From: Sphingobium ummariense RL-3
Lineage (GTDB): Bacteria > Pseudomonadota > Alphaproteobacteria > Sphingomonadales > Sphingomonadaceae
Assembly: GCF_000447205.1 (NCBI RefSeq)
Contig: NZ_AUWY01000048.1
Span: 7,501 to 71,500 of the forward strand
Length of the DNA stretch: 64,000 bases
Reading direction: 5' to 3'
Part shown: in pieces, positions 6,062-39,095 of the stretch
Numbering within the stretch: position 1 is the first letter of the stretch
Layout of the letters: the number at the start of each line of letters is the position of its first letter
The notes under the pieces: generated by a model
Databases searched by the model: none
What the model saw: only the letters and a program-made list of their open reading frames with translations
Told to the model about the DNA's origin: nothing
Position numbers and translations under genes: made by a program

Positions 6062-6817
6062 TCAGGAGACGCCCACGGCGGAGGCCAGCATCCAGCCGGG
6101 CACCGCCGCCAGGGCGAGGAATGTGCCGAGCGGCACGCGGGTGCTTGTCCGCACGCCCTGCCCCAGCATGGCCGCACCCAGTACCGCCAGCAGTCCCGTA
6201 CCGGAAGCCACGAGCAGGATGAAGGGCAATGCCTGCCACCCGAACCAGGCGCCCAGCGCGCCCAGCAGCTTGGCATCGCCCAGCCCCAGCCCCTCGCGCC
6301 CCCGCAATTTACGATAGCTAAGCGCGATCAGCAGCAGCGCGCCATAGCCCAGCGCCGCACCGATCGCCCTGTCAACCAAGGAAGCATCAGTCGACCACGA
6401 TCCGATGGTGAACCCGAGGAAGGCCACCGGAAAGGTCAGCGCGTCGGGCAGCCAGAAATGCCGCCAATCGAGTATCGCCAGCGTCAGCAGCAGCCAGCTG
6501 AGCAACGCCCAGCCGACGCCGCCGAGATCGGGTGACAGACCCAACGCAGCGCCGCCGATGAGTGCGCAGCCCATCTCCACCAGTGGGTGCAGCAGGTCGA
6601 TCCGCGCCCCGCAGGCGCGGCAGCGTCCGCGCTGCACGAGCCAGCTGAGCAGCGGCACCAACTCCGTAGAACGCAGCGTCCGGCCGCAACCGTCACAGGC
6701 CGATCGTCCCCGCGCGATGCCCCGCCCCTGCGGCCAGCGCAGGATCAGCGTCGCCAGAAAGCTGCCAGCGATCGCCCCCGCAATGCCGCCGGCTGCGGCC
6801 GCCAGCGGATCGATCAC
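6062..6817 (-). CDS. gspO: Type II secretion prepilin leader peptidase/methyltransferase
   Basis: 251 residues, polytopic inner-membrane aspartyl protease that cleaves and N-methylates pseudopilins. Zinc-binding Cys pairs are at 41/44 (CDGCGR) and 66/69 (CRACG). The catalytic aspartates lie in LDWRHFWLPD (Asp117) and GLGDAK (about Asp181). It is the last gene of the operon and overlaps gspN by 4 bases (ATGA), so it is translationally coupled. Having it in the operon means all five pseudopilins and their processing enzyme are made together. The four Cys and both Asp are intact, so it should be active. Confidence 0.93.
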   Translation of the reverse strand: MIDPLAAAAGGIAGAIAGSFLATLILRWPQGRGIARGRSACDGCGRTLRSTELVPLLSWLVQRGRCRACGARIDLLHPLVEMGCALIGGAALGLSPDLGGVGWALLSWLLLTLAILDWRHFWLPDALTFPVAFLGFTIGSWSTDASLVDRAIGAALGYGALLLIALSYRKLRGREGLGLGDAKLLGALGAWFGWQALPFILLVASGTGLLAVLGAAMLGQGVRTSTRVPLGTFLALAAVPGWMLASAVGVS

Positions 6818-9133: not shown

Positions 9134-10119
9134 GCGCCGGCGCCCCAGTTGCGGCGCACCAGCACGGCCGGGCTCTGCCGGGCATCGATCAAGGCCCGTT
9201 CCACCACCTGCGTCCCCCCGACATCGACCGTCACATCCACCCTGAAGAATCCCGTCGTCACCTTGACCTGCTGCCCCGCCTCATCCAGCGGATTGATGCC
9301 CATGGCCTTGAACAGGTCCCAGAATTGCGGCACGCCTCCGTAGCCGTCCGGCGAGCGCTGCGCCAGTATCTGCCGCACCTGCGCCACGCTCGCCTGTCCC
9401 TGCAGCAGCATCGCCACCAGCGGCGCCTGATCGGGCAGCAGCGTGTTGACGTTGAGCGGCGACAGGTCGTCGGTCGGCAGCGCGCAGACCCAGGGCTTCA
9501 CCAGATCGTAGATCGCCGGGCTCACGCCGTTGACCGCACGGAGTTCGCTCGCGTCCACCATGAAGCGGTTGGCAGTGCGATAGGGGCGCGTCAGCTGGGC
9601 GTAGGTCTCGTCCTCCGCACCGCCCGGCTGGGGCACGCTGTCGCTGTCGATCCAGTCGGCGAGCGAGGCGGCGACGGCCTGGGCCTGCCGCGCGTCCACG
9701 CCCAGCGCCTGGAGCAGCGCCTGGAACTGGATGACGCCCACGGGACGCACGCTCAACGCGGACTCGCTCTCGCCCGAAACCACGCTGTTGAGGTTGAAGC
9801 AGTTGCCCCCGTCGGTCACCCGCGCCGTGGCGACGCCGCCCGGCACGGGGATCGCCTGCGGCGTCCCCATCCAGCCGCCCGCCAGCGTGATCTTGCCCGG
9901 ATTGGCCTGCACCAGGTCGCCGATGCGCAGGCGGGCGATCTCCGTCCCGGCATCGGCGAAGGCACGCCCCTGCTCGACCGCGCCGCCATTGCCGGTCATG
10001 CGGGTCGCCAGAGCGAGATGCTCCAGCGCGGTGGAGGCGACCACCGCCATCACCGCAACCAGCAGCAGCACGGTCAGCAGCGCGGCGCCCTCCTCGGACG
10101 GGCGCTTGCGGTCAGGCAC
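9130..10119 (-). CDS. gspK: Type II secretion minor pseudopilin K
   Basis: 329 residues, the usual size for this large minor pseudopilin that caps the pseudopilus tip. The prepilin site is RPSEEG before AALLTVLLLVAVMAVV, so the mature protein starts with Ala and has Thr at +5. Absence of Glu at +5 is a known feature of GspK. The large periplasmic alpha-helical insertion follows. It overlaps gspJ by 8 bases and gspL by 4. Confidence 0.92.
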   Translation of the reverse strand: MPDRKRPSEEGAALLTVLLLVAVMAVVASTALEHLALATRMTGNGGAVEQGRAFADAGTEIARLRIGDLVQANPGKITLAGGWMGTPQAIPVPGGVATARVTDGGNCFNLNSVVSGESESALSVRPVGVIQFQALLQALGVDARQAQAVAASLADWIDSDSVPQPGGAEDETYAQLTRPYRTANRFMVDASELRAVNGVSPAIYDLVKPWVCALPTDDLSPLNVNTLLPDQAPLVAMLLQGQASVAQVRQILAQRSPDGYGGVPQFWDLFKAMGINPLDEAGQQVKVTTGFFRVDVTVDVGGTQVVERALIDARQSPAVLVRRNWGAGA

Positions 10120-10765
10120 CGGGCGCCTCCTCGACCAGGGGCTTCTCCATCGGTCCCGGCGCCACCAGGAAGCGCAGCGTGACCGGCGGTTCGCCGGTGC
10201 GGGCGATGGTCATCTCGACGGCGCGGGGCATGAGGTCGGGCTGGGTCGGGGTCCATTCCTCGCGCCAATCCCCGCGCGCGTCGCGGAAACGCAGGGCGAC
10301 GTCCTCGACATGGTCGAGCAGCGCCGCCGGATCGTCCCCCACCGCGCCGTCCACCTGCGCATAGGTGCGCCGCTCCAGCCGCCCCTGCCGCACCCAATAT
10401 TCGACCTTTTGCAGGGAAGGACGCGGCAGGTCGCCCAGATTGTCCCAACCGCCGCGCACGAACTGCATCACCGGCAGGCTCTCCCCCTCCCGATGCGACC
10501 AGAAGGCGGGCGCCAGCGTGCCCGTTTCGGTACGGCTGATGCGCGGCACCGCCTGACCGAGATCGGCCGCGAGCGCGCCTGCGGTTCGCTGCACCGCCGC
10601 CATGTCGTCCAGCCGCGCCTTCACCTGGGCTTGCGCCGACACGCTGTTGCCCAGCAGCAGCACGCCCGCCGCCGCCAGCATGGCGAAGATCATCAGCGCG
10701 ACGAGCAGCTCGATGAGGGTGAAGCCTGACTCGCGGGTTTCCGCTCGGGATCGGGGCGCCATCAT
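10112..10765 (-). CDS. gspJ: Type II secretion minor pseudopilin J
   Basis: 217 residues. The leader is short and basic (MMAPRSRAETRESG) and is cut before FTLIELLVALMIFAMLA, which carries Glu at +5. The globular domain fits GspJ, part of the I-J-K tip complex. It overlaps gspI by 4 bases. This normal leader of about 14 residues is a useful contrast with the very long leaders of gspG and gspH in the same operon. Confidence 0.92.
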   Translation of the reverse strand: MMAPRSRAETRESGFTLIELLVALMIFAMLAAAGVLLLGNSVSAQAQVKARLDDMAAVQRTAGALAADLGQAVPRISRTETGTLAPAFWSHREGESLPVMQFVRGGWDNLGDLPRPSLQKVEYWVRQGRLERRTYAQVDGAVGDDPAALLDHVEDVALRFRDARGDWREEWTPTQPDLMPRAVEMTIARTGEPPVTLRFLVAPGPMEKPLVEEAPGA

Positions 10766-11145
10766 CCCACCACCCGCACGAAGCTCAGCACCACGGGTGA
10801 GGCGCCGCCCTGCCCATCCACCGTCAGGTCGACCTGGAGCAATCGCTTATCATCGGTCGCCTTGACCGTGCGTGCCCAGTGCCAGCGGCGGCCGCCATTG
10901 TCGACATCGCCCTCCTCCATGCCCACGGAAGGCGGTGCGGGATCGGTCTGGACCTCCACCATCAGGTTGCGCGCCACGATCTGCGCCATCGCCTTGCTGT
11001 CGAGATCGGCAGCGGTGTGGAGCGTCACGCTCTGCAACCGCACCAGCGCGAGGGCGGCGAGGCTGAACACCGCCAACGCAACCATCATTTCGAGCAGGGT
11101 GAAACCGCTCTCGCGGTCCCGCGCGGTGCGACGCTTCCTACCCAC
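10762..11145 (-). CDS. gspI: Type II secretion minor pseudopilin I
   Basis: 127 residues, typical for GspI. The leader MGRKRRTARDRESG (14 residues, strongly basic) precedes FTLLEMMVALAVFSLAALAL, with Glu at +5. GspI nucleates the pseudopilus tip with GspJ and GspK. It overlaps gspH by 8 bases and gspJ by 4. Confidence 0.92.
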   Translation of the reverse strand: MGRKRRTARDRESGFTLLEMMVALAVFSLAALALVRLQSVTLHTAADLDSKAMAQIVARNLMVEVQTDPAPPSVGMEEGDVDNGGRRWHWARTVKATDDKRLLQVDLTVDGQGGASPVVLSFVRVVG

Positions 11146-11713
11146 CGACCATGACCTTTCCGGCCATGTCGACGGTCACGGACACCCGCTCGCCCTCGCG
11201 CGCCAGGGTGATGGTCATGGGATCGGTCGGCAGGCCCGTGCCGTCGAAGGCGATCTGCTGGCGGCCTTCCCTGCCCACCAGCGCCCGCGTGCCGCCCTTC
11301 CAGTCGGCGGTGGCGAAGGGCTTGTCCTCCAGCGGCACCCATAGCGACCCGTCGCGTCGCTGGAAGCCGTAGCCCGAGGCGGAAACCCACACGCCCATCG
11401 GGCGTGCGGTGACGACCGCTTCGTCGCGCGCGGCGGCCACGCGCGCGGCGAAGCGGTCGGCATCCTCGATCACCCGCCCGCGCGGGTCGGGGATCGCCAG
11501 CACGACGGCAGCGGAAATGAAACCGATGATCGTCAGGACGACCATCAGCTCGATCAGGGTGAAGCCGCGGTCCTCGCGCGATGAGCGCGCCCCGGCGAAG
11601 GCCGGGACCCAGGAAGCGACACGCTGCACCCAGGGCTCTCGACCTCGGCCTTCGCCGGGGAACAGAGAGGGCGGGGCCTCAGAGTTCGCTGGAAAGGATA
11701 TCCGCATTCTCAT
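11138..11713 (-). CDS. gspH: Type II secretion pseudopilin H with a repeat-derived long leader
   Basis: 191 residues from the ATG at 11713. The pseudopilin core begins FTLIELMVVLTIIGFISAAV (Glu at +5), preceded by REDRG, but the leader before it is about 50 residues. Residues about 19-43 are encoded by a palindromic repeat (11590-11660) and include WVPAFAG. The start at 11713 overlaps gspG by 35 bases. A GTG inside the repeat region would give a 23-residue leader instead, still unusually long. No start lies between the repeat and the cleavage site that I can see, so at least part of the repeat must be translated. GspH is the minor pseudopilin joining the tip complex to the GspG shaft. Confidence 0.85.
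   Translation of the reverse strand: MRMRISFPANSEAPPSLFPGEGRGREPWVQRVASWVPAFAGARSSREDRGFTLIELMVVLTIIGFISAAVVLAIPDPRGRVIEDADRFAARVAAARDEAVVTARPMGVWVSASGYGFQRRDGSLWVPLEDKPFATADWKGGTRALVGREGRQQIAFDGTGLPTDPMTITLAREGERVSVTVDMAGKVMVGG
11590..11660. repeat. Palindromic repeat inside the gspH leader region
   Basis: Two inverted arms, CCCCGGCGAAGGCCGGG (11590-11606) and CCTCGGCCTTCGCCGGGG (11643-11660), are separated by 36 bases. Each arm is itself a palindrome centred on CGAAG or CTTCG. This is the same architecture as the intergenic repeat at 24044-24125. It spans the gspG/gspH junction and is read in frame as part of gspH. Confidence 0.75.
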
Positions 11714-12218
11714 TCTCGCCGCCCGGCTGGCCGTCGGCGCCCAGCGAGCTGATGTCGAACGCGCCCTTCCGCCCCGGCACGGTGTAGATGTAGGCCCGGC
11801 CCCACGGATCCTGCGGCAGCTTCTTGATATAGCCGCCCCGGCGATAGCGTTGCGGCTGCGCCAGCGAGGCGGGCGGCGTCAGCAGCGCCTGCAGCCCGTC
11901 GGTCGCCGCCGGATAGGTCAGGTTATCGAGCCGGTACTGCTCCAGCGCCTGCTCGATGGTGGAGATGTCCGCCTTCGCCTTCTCCACCCGGGCGGTGTCG
12001 GTCGCAGGGATCACGTTGATCGCCACGATCGTCGCCAGCAGGCCGATGATGACGATGACGACCATGAGCTCCACCAGGGTAAATCCGGCTTCGCTCCCTT
12101 GATCTTCGTCATCCCGGCGAAAGCCGGGATCCCGCTTGCTTTCGGGAAGCGCCACAAATCTCCGAAGAGAAGTGAGATCCCGGCTTTCGCCGGGATAACG
12201 GGAGGAAAGGTGATCCAT
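11679..12218 (-). CDS. gspG: Type II secretion major pseudopilin G with a repeat-derived long leader
   Basis: 179 residues from the ATG at 12218, which has a strong Shine-Dalgarno (AAGGAG, spacing 6). The pseudopilin core FTLVELMVVIVIIGLLATIV starts only at residue 46, giving a 45-residue leader where 5-10 is normal. Leader residues 7-38 are the translation of a palindromic repeat (RYPGESRDL to DPGFRRDDE). The remainder is standard GspG: DISTIEQALEQYRLDN, the conserved YPAATDGLQALL, and the C-terminal calcium-site region with DPWGRAYIY and SLGADGQPGGE. It forms the shaft of the pseudopilus that pushes substrates through GspD. Confidence 0.93.
   Translation of the reverse strand: MDHLSSRYPGESRDLTSLRRFVALPESKRDPGFRRDDEDQGSEAGFTLVELMVVIVIIGLLATIVAINVIPATDTARVEKAKADISTIEQALEQYRLDNLTYPAATDGLQALLTPPASLAQPQRYRRGGYIKKLPQDPWGRAYIYTVPGRKGAFDISSLGADGQPGGENENADILSSEL
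12107..12200. repeat. Composite palindromic repeat inside the gspG leader
   Basis: Inverted arms at 12107-12131 (CGTCATCCCGGCGAAAG onward) and 12176-12200 flank a 44-base spacer. Each arm contains its own palindrome CCCGGCGAAAGCCGGG or its complement. The whole 94 bases are translated as residues 7-38 of GspG. A closely similar element stands in an intergenic region at 24044-24125. Confidence 0.85.
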
Positions 12219-12229
12219 ATTCAACTCCT

Positions 12230-13447
12230 TCAGGCCCCTGTGAGGCTCTGCAGCTGCAATATCGGCAGCAGGATGGACAGGATGATGACGGCGACGATGC
12301 CGCCCATCAATATGATGATGACCGGCTCCAGCATGGCGAGCGCGGCCGACGTGAAGCTGTCGAATTCGCGTTCGAGATAGTCGGCGGCGCGCTCCAGCAT
12401 GGTGTCGAGCCGGCCGGCGCTCTCGCCGCTCGCCGCCAGATAGACCAGCAGCGGCGGGAAGACGCCGGCGCGGCGCAGCGCCGCCGACAGGCTGCCGCCG
12501 CCGCGGATCGCCTCGACGATCTGGTCCGATGCCTGGCGCAGCACCCGGTTGTGGACCGTCTGGGTAGTGAGCGTCAGCCCCTCCATCAGCGGCAGGCGGC
12601 TCGCGACCATGGTGGAGAGCGTGCGCGCCATCCGCGCCGCATGAAGGTCGCGAATCAGCCGCCCCAGCAGCGGCAGGCCCAGCAGCATCGCGTCGAAGCG
12701 GTAGCGGAAGCCCTCGACCTTCAGCGCGCGCCAGAAGGCGAAGGCGCCGAGGCCGATCAGGATCGCCAGCAGCCACCAGTAGCCGGCGAGAAAGGCGGAC
12801 AGCCCCATCACCAGCCGGGTCAGCAGCGGCAGCTTCTGCCCTACGGTGTCGAACTGCTCCACCACCTTGGGCACGACGAAGATCATCAGCGCGGCGACGA
12901 CGCAGACGGCGAACACCGCCAGTACGGTGGGATAGGCGATCGCGGTCAGCACCTTGGAGCGCATCACCGCCTGTCGTTCCATAAGGATGGAGAGCCGCTC
13001 CATGATCGTCGGCAGGCTGCCAGAGCTTTCGCCGGCGGAAATCATCGCGCGGTAGAGCGGGGGGAAGCTTTTGGGCTCCGCGCCCAGCGCGTCGGCCAGC
13101 CGCCGCCCCTCCAGCACGCCGCCATGCACCTTGCCCACGATCGCGCGGACATGGGGCTGTTCGCTCTGACGGCCAATCGTGCGCAGCGCTTCCTCGATCG
13201 GGCTGACCTGCACCAGAGTCGAAAGCTGGCGCGTGAAGAGGGTCAGTTCCTTGGCAGAGAGGCGCTGCGCGCGGAAGGACAGTCCGGCCCGCTTGCGCGC
13301 CACCTCCGCTGCGCCCGGCTCCAGCCGCACGATGAAAAGCTTGCGCGCGTCCAGCCGGGCGCGCGCATCCTCGACCGTCTCGGCCTTGACCGATCCCTTG
13401 CGCTCCTTCCCTGCAGGGTCGATCGCGACATAGTCGTAATCAGCCAT
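12230..13447 (-). CDS. gspF: Type II secretion inner-membrane platform protein F
   Basis: 405 residues from ATG at 13447, the usual GspF length; the start MADYDYVAIDPAGKERKG matches the family. Two T2SS-F helical domains are seen (about 70-195 and 270-395), each followed by membrane segments; the last is AMLEPVIIILMGGIVAVIIL. Conserved LPTIMERLS and AAGESAG-like (AASGESAGRLD) motifs are present. It links the ATPase GspE to the pseudopilus base. Its start overlaps the gspE stop by 8 bases. Confidence 0.93.
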   Translation of the reverse strand: MADYDYVAIDPAGKERKGSVKAETVEDARARLDARKLFIVRLEPGAAEVARKRAGLSFRAQRLSAKELTLFTRQLSTLVQVSPIEEALRTIGRQSEQPHVRAIVGKVHGGVLEGRRLADALGAEPKSFPPLYRAMISAGESSGSLPTIMERLSILMERQAVMRSKVLTAIAYPTVLAVFAVCVVAALMIFVVPKVVEQFDTVGQKLPLLTRLVMGLSAFLAGYWWLLAILIGLGAFAFWRALKVEGFRYRFDAMLLGLPLLGRLIRDLHAARMARTLSTMVASRLPLMEGLTLTTQTVHNRVLRQASDQIVEAIRGGGSLSAALRRAGVFPPLLVYLAASGESAGRLDTMLERAADYLEREFDSFTSAALAMLEPVIIILMGGIVAVIILSILLPILQLQSLTGA

Positions 13448-15062
13448 CGGCGATGGTTTCCACCTCGACCACGTCGCGGCGCGACACGCGGATGGCCTCT
13501 TCCGCCGTGGTCTGTCCGTCGCGCACCAGCGCACGGGCCGCCGACCCCAGATTCGGGGCGTTGAGGAAGGCGTGGCGCGCGATCAGGGATTCATCGCCAC
13601 CGTCGTTGATCAGGCGGCGGATGGTGTCGTCGACGCGGATCGCCTCGAACACGCCGATCCGGCCCTTGTAGCCGGTGCCGCTGCATTCCTCGCAGCCGCG
13701 CGCCCTGTAGATGATCGTGCCGGGGTCGAAGCCCAGCAGCGCGCTCGCCGACTTGTCCGCCTGCACCGGCTCGCGGCAATGCTGGCACAGGCGGCGGACA
13801 AGCCGCTGGGCGATGACTGCGCGCAGGGTAGAGGCGAGCAGGAAGGGCTCGACCCGCATGTCGCGCATTCGCGTGATCGCGCCCACGGCGTCGTTGGTGT
13901 GGACTGTGGAAAGGACGAGATGGCCCGTCAGCGACGCCTGGACCGCGATCTCGGCGGTTTCGCGGTCGCGGATTTCACCTACCATCACCACGTCGGGGTC
14001 TTGCCGCAGGATCGCGCGCAAGCCGGCGGCGAAGGTCAGGCCGACCTTCGCATTGACCTGGGTCTGGCCGACTCCCTCGATCGCATATTCGACCGGATCC
14101 TCGACCGTCAGGATGTTGCGGGTGCCGTCGTTGAGCTGGCGCAGGCCTGCATAGAGCGTCGTCGTCTTGCCCGATCCGGTCGGGCCGGTGACGAGGATGA
14201 TGCCATTGGGTTCGGACAGCCCCTCGCGGAAGATGCGATCGGGCGCGCCCGTCATGCCGAGCAGGTCGAGGTTGATGCCTGCATTCTCCTTGTCGAGAAT
14301 GCGCAGCACCACACGCTCGCCCGCGCGGCTCGGCAGGGTGGAGACGCGGACGTCGAGCAGCTTGCCGCCGAGCGTCAGGCCGATGCGCCCGTCCTGCGGC
14401 ACGCGCCGCTCGGCGATGTCGAGCCGGGCCATGACCTTGATGCGGCTGACGACCACGGGCGCGACATGGGGCGGCATGCGCAGCGTTTCGCGCAGCACGC
14501 CGTCGATCCGCATCCGCACGATCAGGCCGGTTTCATAGGGTTCGATATGGATGTCCGACACGCCCTGCCGCGCGGCCTCGGCGATGATGCCGTTGATGAG
14601 GCGGATGGCGGGCGCGTCGTCGGCGCTGTCGAGCAGGTCGTCGGCGGTGGGGATGTCGGCGGCGAGCATGTCGAGCTCGTCCGCCCCGACGTCCAATGAT
14701 CCGGCCATGGCCGCGGCGCTGCCGTCCATCGCATAATGATCGGACAGGTGCCGGTCGAACTGCGCCGGATCGACGAAGCGGACGTCGAAGCTCCTGGCCA
14801 GATGGCGACGTACCTCCAGCAGCACACGCGGGTCGCTGCCTTCACGCACCGCGATGATCAGGCGAGCGCCTTCTTCCGGCAGGATCACCACGCCATGCTT
14901 GCGGGCGAAGCCATAAGGGATGTCGACCGGGCGGAGGGGAATTGCAGGGGAGATGCTCTCTCCGTTCTTCTGCGAAAGCAGGAGCTCGGGGCGATCGGGT
15001 TCCGCACTCGAACCTTGGGCTCCTGCCTTCGCAGGAGCACCGGAATTGCTCTCTTCGCTCAC
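13440..15062 (-). CDS. gspE: Type II secretion ATPase E with a repeat-derived N-terminal segment
   Basis: 540 residues. Hexameric cytoplasmic ATPase powering pseudopilus assembly. The N1E/N2E domain (about 40-150) is followed by the ATPase core with Walker A GPTGSGKTTT (about 293-302), Asp box (about 317-325, NILTVEDPVE) and Walker B/His box (VMVGEIRDRETAEIA). A zinc-binding tetracysteine is intact (CQHC and CEEC). Residues 8-32 (GAPAKAGAQ onward) come from a palindromic repeat, lie before the first conserved domain and look dispensable. It overlaps gspD by 4 bases. Confidence 0.93.
   Translation of the reverse strand: MSEESNSGAPAKAGAQGSSAEPDRPELLLSQKNGESISPAIPLRPVDIPYGFARKHGVVILPEEGARLIIAVREGSDPRVLLEVRRHLARSFDVRFVDPAQFDRHLSDHYAMDGSAAAMAGSLDVGADELDMLAADIPTADDLLDSADDAPAIRLINGIIAEAARQGVSDIHIEPYETGLIVRMRIDGVLRETLRMPPHVAPVVVSRIKVMARLDIAERRVPQDGRIGLTLGGKLLDVRVSTLPSRAGERVVLRILDKENAGINLDLLGMTGAPDRIFREGLSEPNGIILVTGPTGSGKTTTLYAGLRQLNDGTRNILTVEDPVEYAIEGVGQTQVNAKVGLTFAAGLRAILRQDPDVVMVGEIRDRETAEIAVQASLTGHLVLSTVHTNDAVGAITRMRDMRVEPFLLASTLRAVIAQRLVRRLCQHCREPVQADKSASALLGFDPGTIIYRARGCEECSGTGYKGRIGVFEAIRVDDTIRRLINDGGDESLIARHAFLNAPNLGSAARALVRDGQTTAEEAIRVSRRDVVEVETIADG
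14968..15041. repeat. Palindromic repeat inside the 5' coding region of gspE
   Basis: One arm is a near-perfect palindrome, GCTCCTGCCTTCGCAGGAGC (15019-15038). The other is an imperfect inverse copy at 14968-14987 (TTCTGCGAAAGCAGGAGCTC). This arm-spacer-arm plan resembles the gspG and gspH repeats, but the arm sequence differs, so it is a related subfamily. It encodes residues 8-32 of GspE. Confidence 0.75.
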
Positions 15063-38689: not shown

Positions 38690-39030
38690 GGGGAAGGGTC
38701 CGGAGGGTTCTGTTGCCCGGCCCCTCCGGCGGCCGCTGAATTCCCTTCTGTTGCCCGGTGGGTTCAACCGCGTTCTTTTTGGGTAATGTCAGGCCGTGAG
38801 GCCATCAATTACGCAGCAAGAGCAAGAGCCTCGTTATCGTTGGCACTTGTAGGTTTTGAACCTTTTTACGGCGTACTCAGGCCGGGTGAAGGCACCGCTT
38901 TTCAACACACGTCGATCCTAGTTCGGCCCCATCAGAACACCCCGTTCGACGGGGCTTTTGGTGGAGCCGCCGGGTACTGCCCCCGGGTCCGCTGCGCCTA
39001 TTGCACGACACGATTTATCACCATAGCCGG
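38690..39030 (-). ncRNA. ssrA: Two-piece (circularly permuted) tmRNA
   Basis: Alphaproteobacterial permuted ssrA on the minus strand. The acceptor piece comes first and ends CGGCTCCACCA with CCA at 38961-38959. A short processed spacer follows. The coding piece starts GGGGCCGAACTAGGATCGACG at 38930 (shown in part as GGGGCCGAACTAGG). GGGGCCG pairs with CGGCTCC as a 7-bp acceptor stem with G-U at the third pair, the alanine identity element. The tag frame at 38844-38809 is GCC AAC GAT AAC and so on to TAA, coding ANDNEALALAA. It rescues stalled ribosomes with SmpB. Outer ends are approximate. This RNA accounts for most of the gene-free stretch 38607-39095; I see nothing else there apart from its terminator. 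Confidence 0.92.
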
Positions 39031-39095
39031 GCGAACCCGGCACTATCCATATGGGGGAAACGGCCGCGATTTTCAACCGCTTCCCCATGACGCGT

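Follow-up and report, generated by a model that had tools for sequence, protein, structure and literature searches.

In the REPIN/RAYT system, two REPs in inverted order give one long hairpin. In Di Nocera et al. 2013 (PMC3733652), CGTC families are reported from S. wittichii and S. chlorophenolicum, apparently without a dedicated transposase, RPE-6 of Rickettsia conorii is equated with CGTC-1, and R. conorii proteins carrying an N-terminal RPE-1 are cited as being expressed. The same paper cautions that REPs at the N-terminus may be misannotated as coding. Type IV pilins have class III leaders whose length is given in a review as 6–51 residues (PMC6916266). Intragenic REPs are already known; a literature search of open-licence PMC papers found none on repeats in pseudopilin leaders, nor on a recurrent leader hotspot of the kind described here.

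A palindromic element within gspG

The window (the whole 64,000-nucleotide stretch of DNA analysed here) belongs to a genome of 4.75 Mb, the closest named relatives of which, by gspG, are Sphingobium species. On the minus strand of the window lies a type II secretion operon (gspD-E-F-G-H-I-J and onward) with the following features:

6185..6505, minus strand: Peptidase_A24 domain near the operon (profile match)
10112..10765, minus strand: gspJ (Pfam T2SSJ), with a short leader here and repeats in some relatives
10762..11145, minus strand: gspI (Pfam T2SSI), with a short leader here and repeats in some relatives
11138..11713, minus strand: gspH (Pfam GspH)
11590..11660, minus strand: second REP dimer, read in frame in the GspH leader, though in another of its reading frames (arm matches 11591–11608 and 11642–11659)
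11679..12218, minus strand: gspG, the major pseudopilin, 179 codons with a 45-residue leader (open reading frame; Pfam T2SSG and N_methyl)
12084..12086, minus strand: codon of Gly45, the last leader residue, at the predicted cut G/FTLVE (sequence and N_methyl match)
12107..12200, minus strand: putative CGTC REP dimer with tags outward (head-to-head, HH), in frame as residues 7–38 (inverted repeat, genomic copies and fold; definition from PMC3733652)
12153..12155, minus strand: GTG at residue 22, within the repeat, the sole alternative in-frame start (sequence)
12225..12230, minus strand: ribosome site AAGGAG, 6 nt before the ATG (12216–12218), with similar sites in relatives
12230..13444, minus strand: gspF (Pfam T2SSF), its stop codon overlapping the gspG ribosome site AAGGAG
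14967..15040, minus strand: REP-like inverted pair with a different stem, close to the N-terminal end of GspE and in frame there (identified by eye)

GspG has both the T2SSG domain (Pfam, residues 68–176) and the N-methylation motif (N_methyl, residues 43–65) of a T2SS major pseudopilin, with the cut coming after residue 45. The initial annotation had described a 45-residue leader with a normal core after the cut and a strong ribosome site 6 bases ahead of the ATG; the Pfam matches bear out the former, and AAGGAG was found where the latter was placed. Cleavage of the class III signal peptide is predicted, the cleavage motif being normal and a peptidase domain being encoded in the genome. The Peptidase_A24 domain at 6185–6505 is taken to be GspO, and a second such domain lies on another contig of the same genome. 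Throughout this genome the N_methyl model has four matches, which are GspG, H, I, and J. Over the whole window, Rfam at its gathering thresholds gave a tmRNA only, an alphaproteobacterial (permuted) gene at 38737–39080 on the minus strand.

That the 94-nt palindrome at 12107–12200 is read in frame as GspG residues 7–38 was confirmed by the open reading frame, the arms and the fold. The arms (12107–12145 and 12162–12200) are 39 nt each and 85% complementary, and the RNA fold has a z of −6.0, with none of 200 dinucleotide shuffles folding equally well. Both arms read ATCCCGGC-GAAA-GCCGGGAT, an 8-bp stem beginning with AT and a 4-base loop, as in CGTC-1. The outer tags are CGTC on one arm and CGTT on the other; the definition of CGTC-1 in PMC3733652 allows the tag variants TGTC and CCTC, and CGTT would be a further variant. 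The tails, CCC and CTC, are by themselves no ground for excluding membership in CGTC-1, since most but not all of the short tails described in that paper fit CCA. The tags lie at the outer ends, 12107 and 12200, with about 40 nt between the units, and an HH dimer is defined there as having its tags outside and a spacer of mostly 20–100 bp. By these definitions (PMC3733652), the gspG element classifies from its letters as a CGTC-1 head-to-head REP dimer; the likeness to Rickettsia palindromic elements drawn at the outset holds to the extent that the element shares a superfamily with R. conorii RPE-6.

The element is also multicopy, as expected of CGTC-1. Its arm, CCCGGCGAAAGCCGGGAT (family A), occurs at 43 places in its own genome, the one genome covered by the genome-wide count (≤2 mismatches; 7 exact), for 1 match of the reversed-pattern control, and the same arm has 7 matches within the window (≤3 mismatches) against 0.21 expected. 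Stretches of 21–31 nt of one gspG repeat arm are identical in other copies in this genome. Thirty of the 43 places were retrieved, and of the 20 long frames (out of 58) that were compared with Pfam, 6 matched. Judging by domain content, we take the genes concerned to include a MiaB-like radical SAM gene in which the REP separates two domains, and MurD, with the REP inside the middle-domain match; at an Era-like GTPase, a GIY-YIG and a Lactamase_B gene the copy is on the N-terminal side, perhaps outside the gene, and a thioesterase match looks like chance. The MiaB-like, MurD and Era-like GTPase copies are at loci L003, L010, and L004.

Repeats in pseudopilin leaders across the genus

The comparison covered 60 genomes, each represented by some 10 kb surrounding gspG; 56 are from the same genus, including the genome of the window (L141–L196). 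In the genus, gspG leaders measure 10–86 residues with a median of 42, close to the 45 of the window gspG (n = 55 measurable; start codons were called by rule, some of them poorly, as in L181, L187, and L192), and this, with the range in the review, does away with 5–10 residues as the only norm. Nor is the window leader a short one with a single unusual insertion: leaders in the genus are usually long, and many consist of other repeats. Classed by eye (n = 56), family A is present in one frame in 10 leaders and in another frame in 3, family B in 14 and family D in 2; 5 are apparent deletion remnants, and 22 have none of these. The arms of family B are TGAGCnTGTCGAA and those of family D are CCCTCCCT, and their differing sequences suggest that A, B, and D are mutually unrelated. 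The DNA patterns are stricter than the eye, giving A 12, B 10, and D 2 at the F-G junction: L149, L157, L172, and L180 (classed A) and L158, L162, L174, and L176 (classed B) fail them, and L152, L160, and L178 pass pattern A though classed as remnant or none. The short leaders of L152, L160, L148, and L147 look like remnants of a deletion between arms.

Family B is multicopy in the genome of the window (37+42 matches; reversed control 0), as is family D in several genomes, with 12+11 matches in G047 and up to 24+24 in G030, each palindrome being counted on both strands; D has 0 matches in the genome of the window and in G003, which itself contains one of the two D-class loci. Among the gspG loci of named relatives, many of which are the same assemblies as in the main set, 60 of 80 were resolved by motif and 20 were not, and 19 had arms (A 11, B 8).

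Repeat-free homologues had been expected to have a short leader. Taking as repeat-free the same-genus loci that have no REP and at most one tandem motif, this is true of 10 of the 15, with 10–27 residues, and fails in the other five, with 35–47. The condition set for refuting the proposal, that all relatives share the long leader with unrelated sequence, came out half true: long leaders are usual, and many of the relatives use different repeats.

Repeat-encoded stretches are also found in the GspH, GspI, and GspJ leaders of relatives, and in the window in the GspH leader and at the GspE start. The distribution of arms of patterns A, B, and D differs between junctions: F-G (24/56), G-H (9/56), H-I (6/51), I-J (5/56), and D-E (8/54) have them, and none was seen at E-F (0/54), J-K, K-L or L-M (each 0/56). 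The four leader junctions hold 65 arm matches in 22.65 kb, against 0.45 after shuffling by pairs of bases, and gene bodies hold 11 in 504 kb, so that leader junctions are about 130-fold richer. Patterns B and D were derived from gspG leaders, and the H, I, and J junctions were therefore used as an independent check; alone they gave 23 arm matches in 14.66 kb. Searched for without any pattern, inverted repeats (score ≥11) turned up in 52 of 209 leader junctions (F-G 22/56, G-H 13/51, H-I 9/51, I-J 8/51), whereas gene bodies had them in 16 of 3262 windows of 140 nt. Beyond the leader junctions they were present in 9/54 at D-E and in none of 56 at either J-K or K-L. Within the gspG leaders proper, a strong inverted repeat was present in 21 of 55, compared with 1 of 1100 base-shuffled leaders. 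In L192–L196 the G-H and I-J segments are overlong, anchors having been missed; these loci were kept in the pattern counts and excluded from the G-H, H-I, and I-J counts of the frame, leader-junction-length and pattern-free tests.

None of the A, B or D repeats or tandem units was seen at the starts of GspF, GspL, and GspM or in the short GspK leader. Although GspK is a pseudopilin, its leader is repeat-free at the gspJ-gspK junction in 56/56 loci (L141–L196).

A further kind of repeat, a 33-bp unit, is common to the four paralogs GspG, H, I, and J (for example in L182, L180, L191, L154, L173, and L190). The unit ends in the cleavage motif, its peptide reading RSAEHGFT or RSAQQGFT. At least two units are present in the leaders of 14/56 G, 16/56 H, 8/51 I, and 14/56 J, and tandem units are found in no other junction of the operon. 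In eight genomes, 40 of 40 matches (≤3 mismatches) lay no more than about 1.4 kb from gspG, on its contig, for 4 matches of the reversed control in the same genomes; we could thus set aside the 33-bp unit as a genome-wide repeat, all of its matches being confined to the gsp locus. Units that lie at this locus and end in the cleavage motif indicate that the recognition motif itself has been copied head to tail.

Outside the genus, gspG was detected in 33 of 189 other genomes of the class at the threshold used, and of the 89 leader sites there only one, L221, fitted the pattern (34 of 36 places covered). By eye only, and uncounted because they fail the pattern, L208 and L213 (GspI) and L215 (GspG) look repeat-encoded, and further named sphingomonad examples of repeat-encoded leaders are likewise by eye only. 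As tested, the phenomenon appears to belong mainly to this genus.

RAYT was considered as the mobiliser and rejected: Y1_Tnp genes were found in 17 of 61 genomes, and of 22 such loci only one, L206, has a family B pair nearby. In the genome of the window there are three Y1_Tnp genes, none with family A in the flanks retrieved, which leaves the REPIN-with-RAYT arrangement without a counterpart there. One of the three is L206, with the family B pair close downstream; the other two copies have no such pair.

Reading frame and turnover of the leaders

Past the end of gspF, 50 of the 56 loci have an ATG preceded by a ribosome site, by the rule used, and 6 lack one; in 49 of the 50, all but L161, the first such ATG shares the frame of gspG and no stop intervenes before the cut. 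The distance from the upstream stop to the cut leaves one remainder modulo 3 in 51/51 loci for gspI, across 28 different lengths, and in 51/51 for gspJ, across 30; for both genes the frame is uninterrupted from that stop onward in all 51 loci. In gspH one remainder is kept in 48/51, the failing loci being L142, L161, and L181. Leader lengths that respect the frame would be unneeded if the leaders were untranslated, and the repeat-bearing leaders are almost certainly translated on this comparative ground. Such genus-wide conservation is strong evidence, at least here, on the doubt over translation of N-terminal REPs raised in PMC3733652.

At L161, where gspG has family B arms, the ribosome-site ATG is out of frame; the gene may be broken, have another start or reflect an assembly error. 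Two database entries under one strain name, P0004 and P0054, share the same GspG core and start before and after the repeat, respectively, a warning for annotation, since one strain name has two entries with different gene starts.

The leaders turn over fast. Mapped on the operon tree, leader classes require at least 23 changes, and 500 label shuffles give a mean of 30.1 and a minimum of 24; the observed value lies below the shuffled minimum, which points to some inheritance of leader class, in a test where the classes were assigned by eye and where, because the tree is of operon proteins, exchange is indistinguishable from repeated insertion. Over 990 nt of gspF and the gspG core, L144 and L151 share 97.6% identity, yet their leaders align at 0.16 compared with 0.15 when shuffled; unrelated leaders on near-identical genes are likewise found in L142/L168, L163/L165, and L149/L170. 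Among pairs at least 91% identical, 13 of 23 share the leader by our own threshold. Alignments of the swapped leaders break just past the ATG and near the cut. In gspJ, by eye, L169 has a short leader, L142 and L171 a B-like insert and L168 an A-like one, the arms of these last three failing the DNA pattern. Replacement of whole leaders between near-identical genes suggests short recombination tracts.

Explanations and comparison with known systems

We consider it very likely that the insertion of a REP dimer, translated as a leader that is then removed, has been tolerated in gspG, and that the leaders of GspG, H, I, and J are recurrent sites of repeats. A CGTC-type REP dimer would have ended up 18 nt into gspG, in frame, and would be translated as most of the GspG prepilin leader; the prepilin peptidase (GspO) would cut after Gly45 and leave the mature pseudopilin unchanged, and the insertion would consequently cost little. 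In the leaders of GspG, H, I, and J, palindromes and 33-bp duplications would arrive, decay, be partly deleted and be exchanged, with one firm demand, that the frame stays open. Most likely, then, repeats persist in the leader as long as they preserve the frame: as the leader would be cut away, frame-keeping insertions there should do little harm, and the peptidase gene near the operon counts in favor of this account. Tolerance of a repeat in a peptidase-removed leader had been proposed from the window; the repeat is indeed read in frame in a predicted removable leader, but the event is recurrent rather than a single insertion.

Several observations count against this account. The repeat-free GspK leader (56/56) means that class III leaders as free space is not a universal rule, and repeats are also present at the D-E junction, even though GspE lacks a leader of the removable kind. 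Whole-leader replacement in near-identical genes is unexplained by insertion alone. To these are added the out-of-frame ATG of L161, the 6 of 56 loci without a ribosome-site ATG by the rule used, the failure of the H frame in 3/51 loci, the single pattern match among 89 leader sites outside the genus, and the lack of family D matches in G003 and the genome of the window.

The junction might instead be a preferred target of the insertion machinery rather than a site of survival, which we regard as unlikely. The gspG elements with clear arms begin at similar positions, at about nt 15–35 of the open reading frame, different repeat kinds are found at the same place, and GspK, whose leader is of the same type, has none; however, several repeat kinds would need an identical preference, and Y1 transposase genes occur in only 17/61 genomes, with 1 of 22 loci having a pattern repeat nearby. 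It is rather unlikely that sphingomonad pseudopilin leaders are actively diversifying cassettes, in which palindromes and tandem units tune pseudopilin output or processing and whole leaders are swapped among otherwise near-identical genes, the exchanged tract ending close to the ATG on one side and to the cleavage site on the other.

We also find it quite improbable that the hairpin is kept for an RNA role past the footprint of the initiating ribosome, adjusting how well gspG is translated, or how stable it is, in relation to gspF. The fold (z = −6.0), the excess of strong inverted repeats (21/55 leaders against 1/1100 shuffled) and the palindromic nature that the different repeat kinds have in common are what such a role would predict, but 34 of 55 gspG leaders have no such hairpin, which is evidently not needed; 33-bp tandem units accumulate too, and the leaders of GspH, GspI, and GspJ behave alike though these are minor pseudopilins. 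That translation starts inside or after the repeat, leaving it as untranslated 5′ sequence, is highly improbable: the residue-22 GTG has GGAG four bases upstream, P0054 makes a later start possible in that relative's gene and PMC3733652 voices a general caution, but the window gspG has no ATG, GTG or TTG between repeat and predicted cut, so that of the later starts once envisaged only the GTG inside the repeat is available, and untranslated sequence would not have kept the frame in 49/50 gspG and 51/51 gspI and gspJ loci over 28 and 30 lengths.

Read as repeats tolerated in a removed leader, these loci are a clean natural experiment on which parts of a gene can bear selfish repeats, here a segment that would be translated and then removed, and many natural leaders are available to test what the prepilin peptidase and the export route accept.

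The gspG element resembles the CGTC REPs of PMC3733652 in its CGTC tag, its 8-bp stem starting with AT, its 4-base loop and its HH dimer, and in being multicopy in sphingomonad hosts where intragenic copies are known; it differs in that copies here cluster in one kind of functional segment, whereas many N-terminal copies are treated there as possibly misannotated. With the Rickettsia palindromic elements (RPE-6, RPE-4, and RPE-1) it shares the presence of in-frame palindromes within working genes, but those elements are in many unrelated proteins, and here different repeats lie in the same predicted removable leaders in many species. REPIN/RAYT systems likewise have an inverted REP pair, but no linked Y1 transposase was found for the family A copies. 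Finally, the class III prepilin peptides of T2SS and type IV pili have a hydrophilic leader ending in Gly that is cut by a prepilin peptidase, as predicted for GspG, whereas here many leaders consist mostly of repeat DNA and may be wholly different among near-identical genes.
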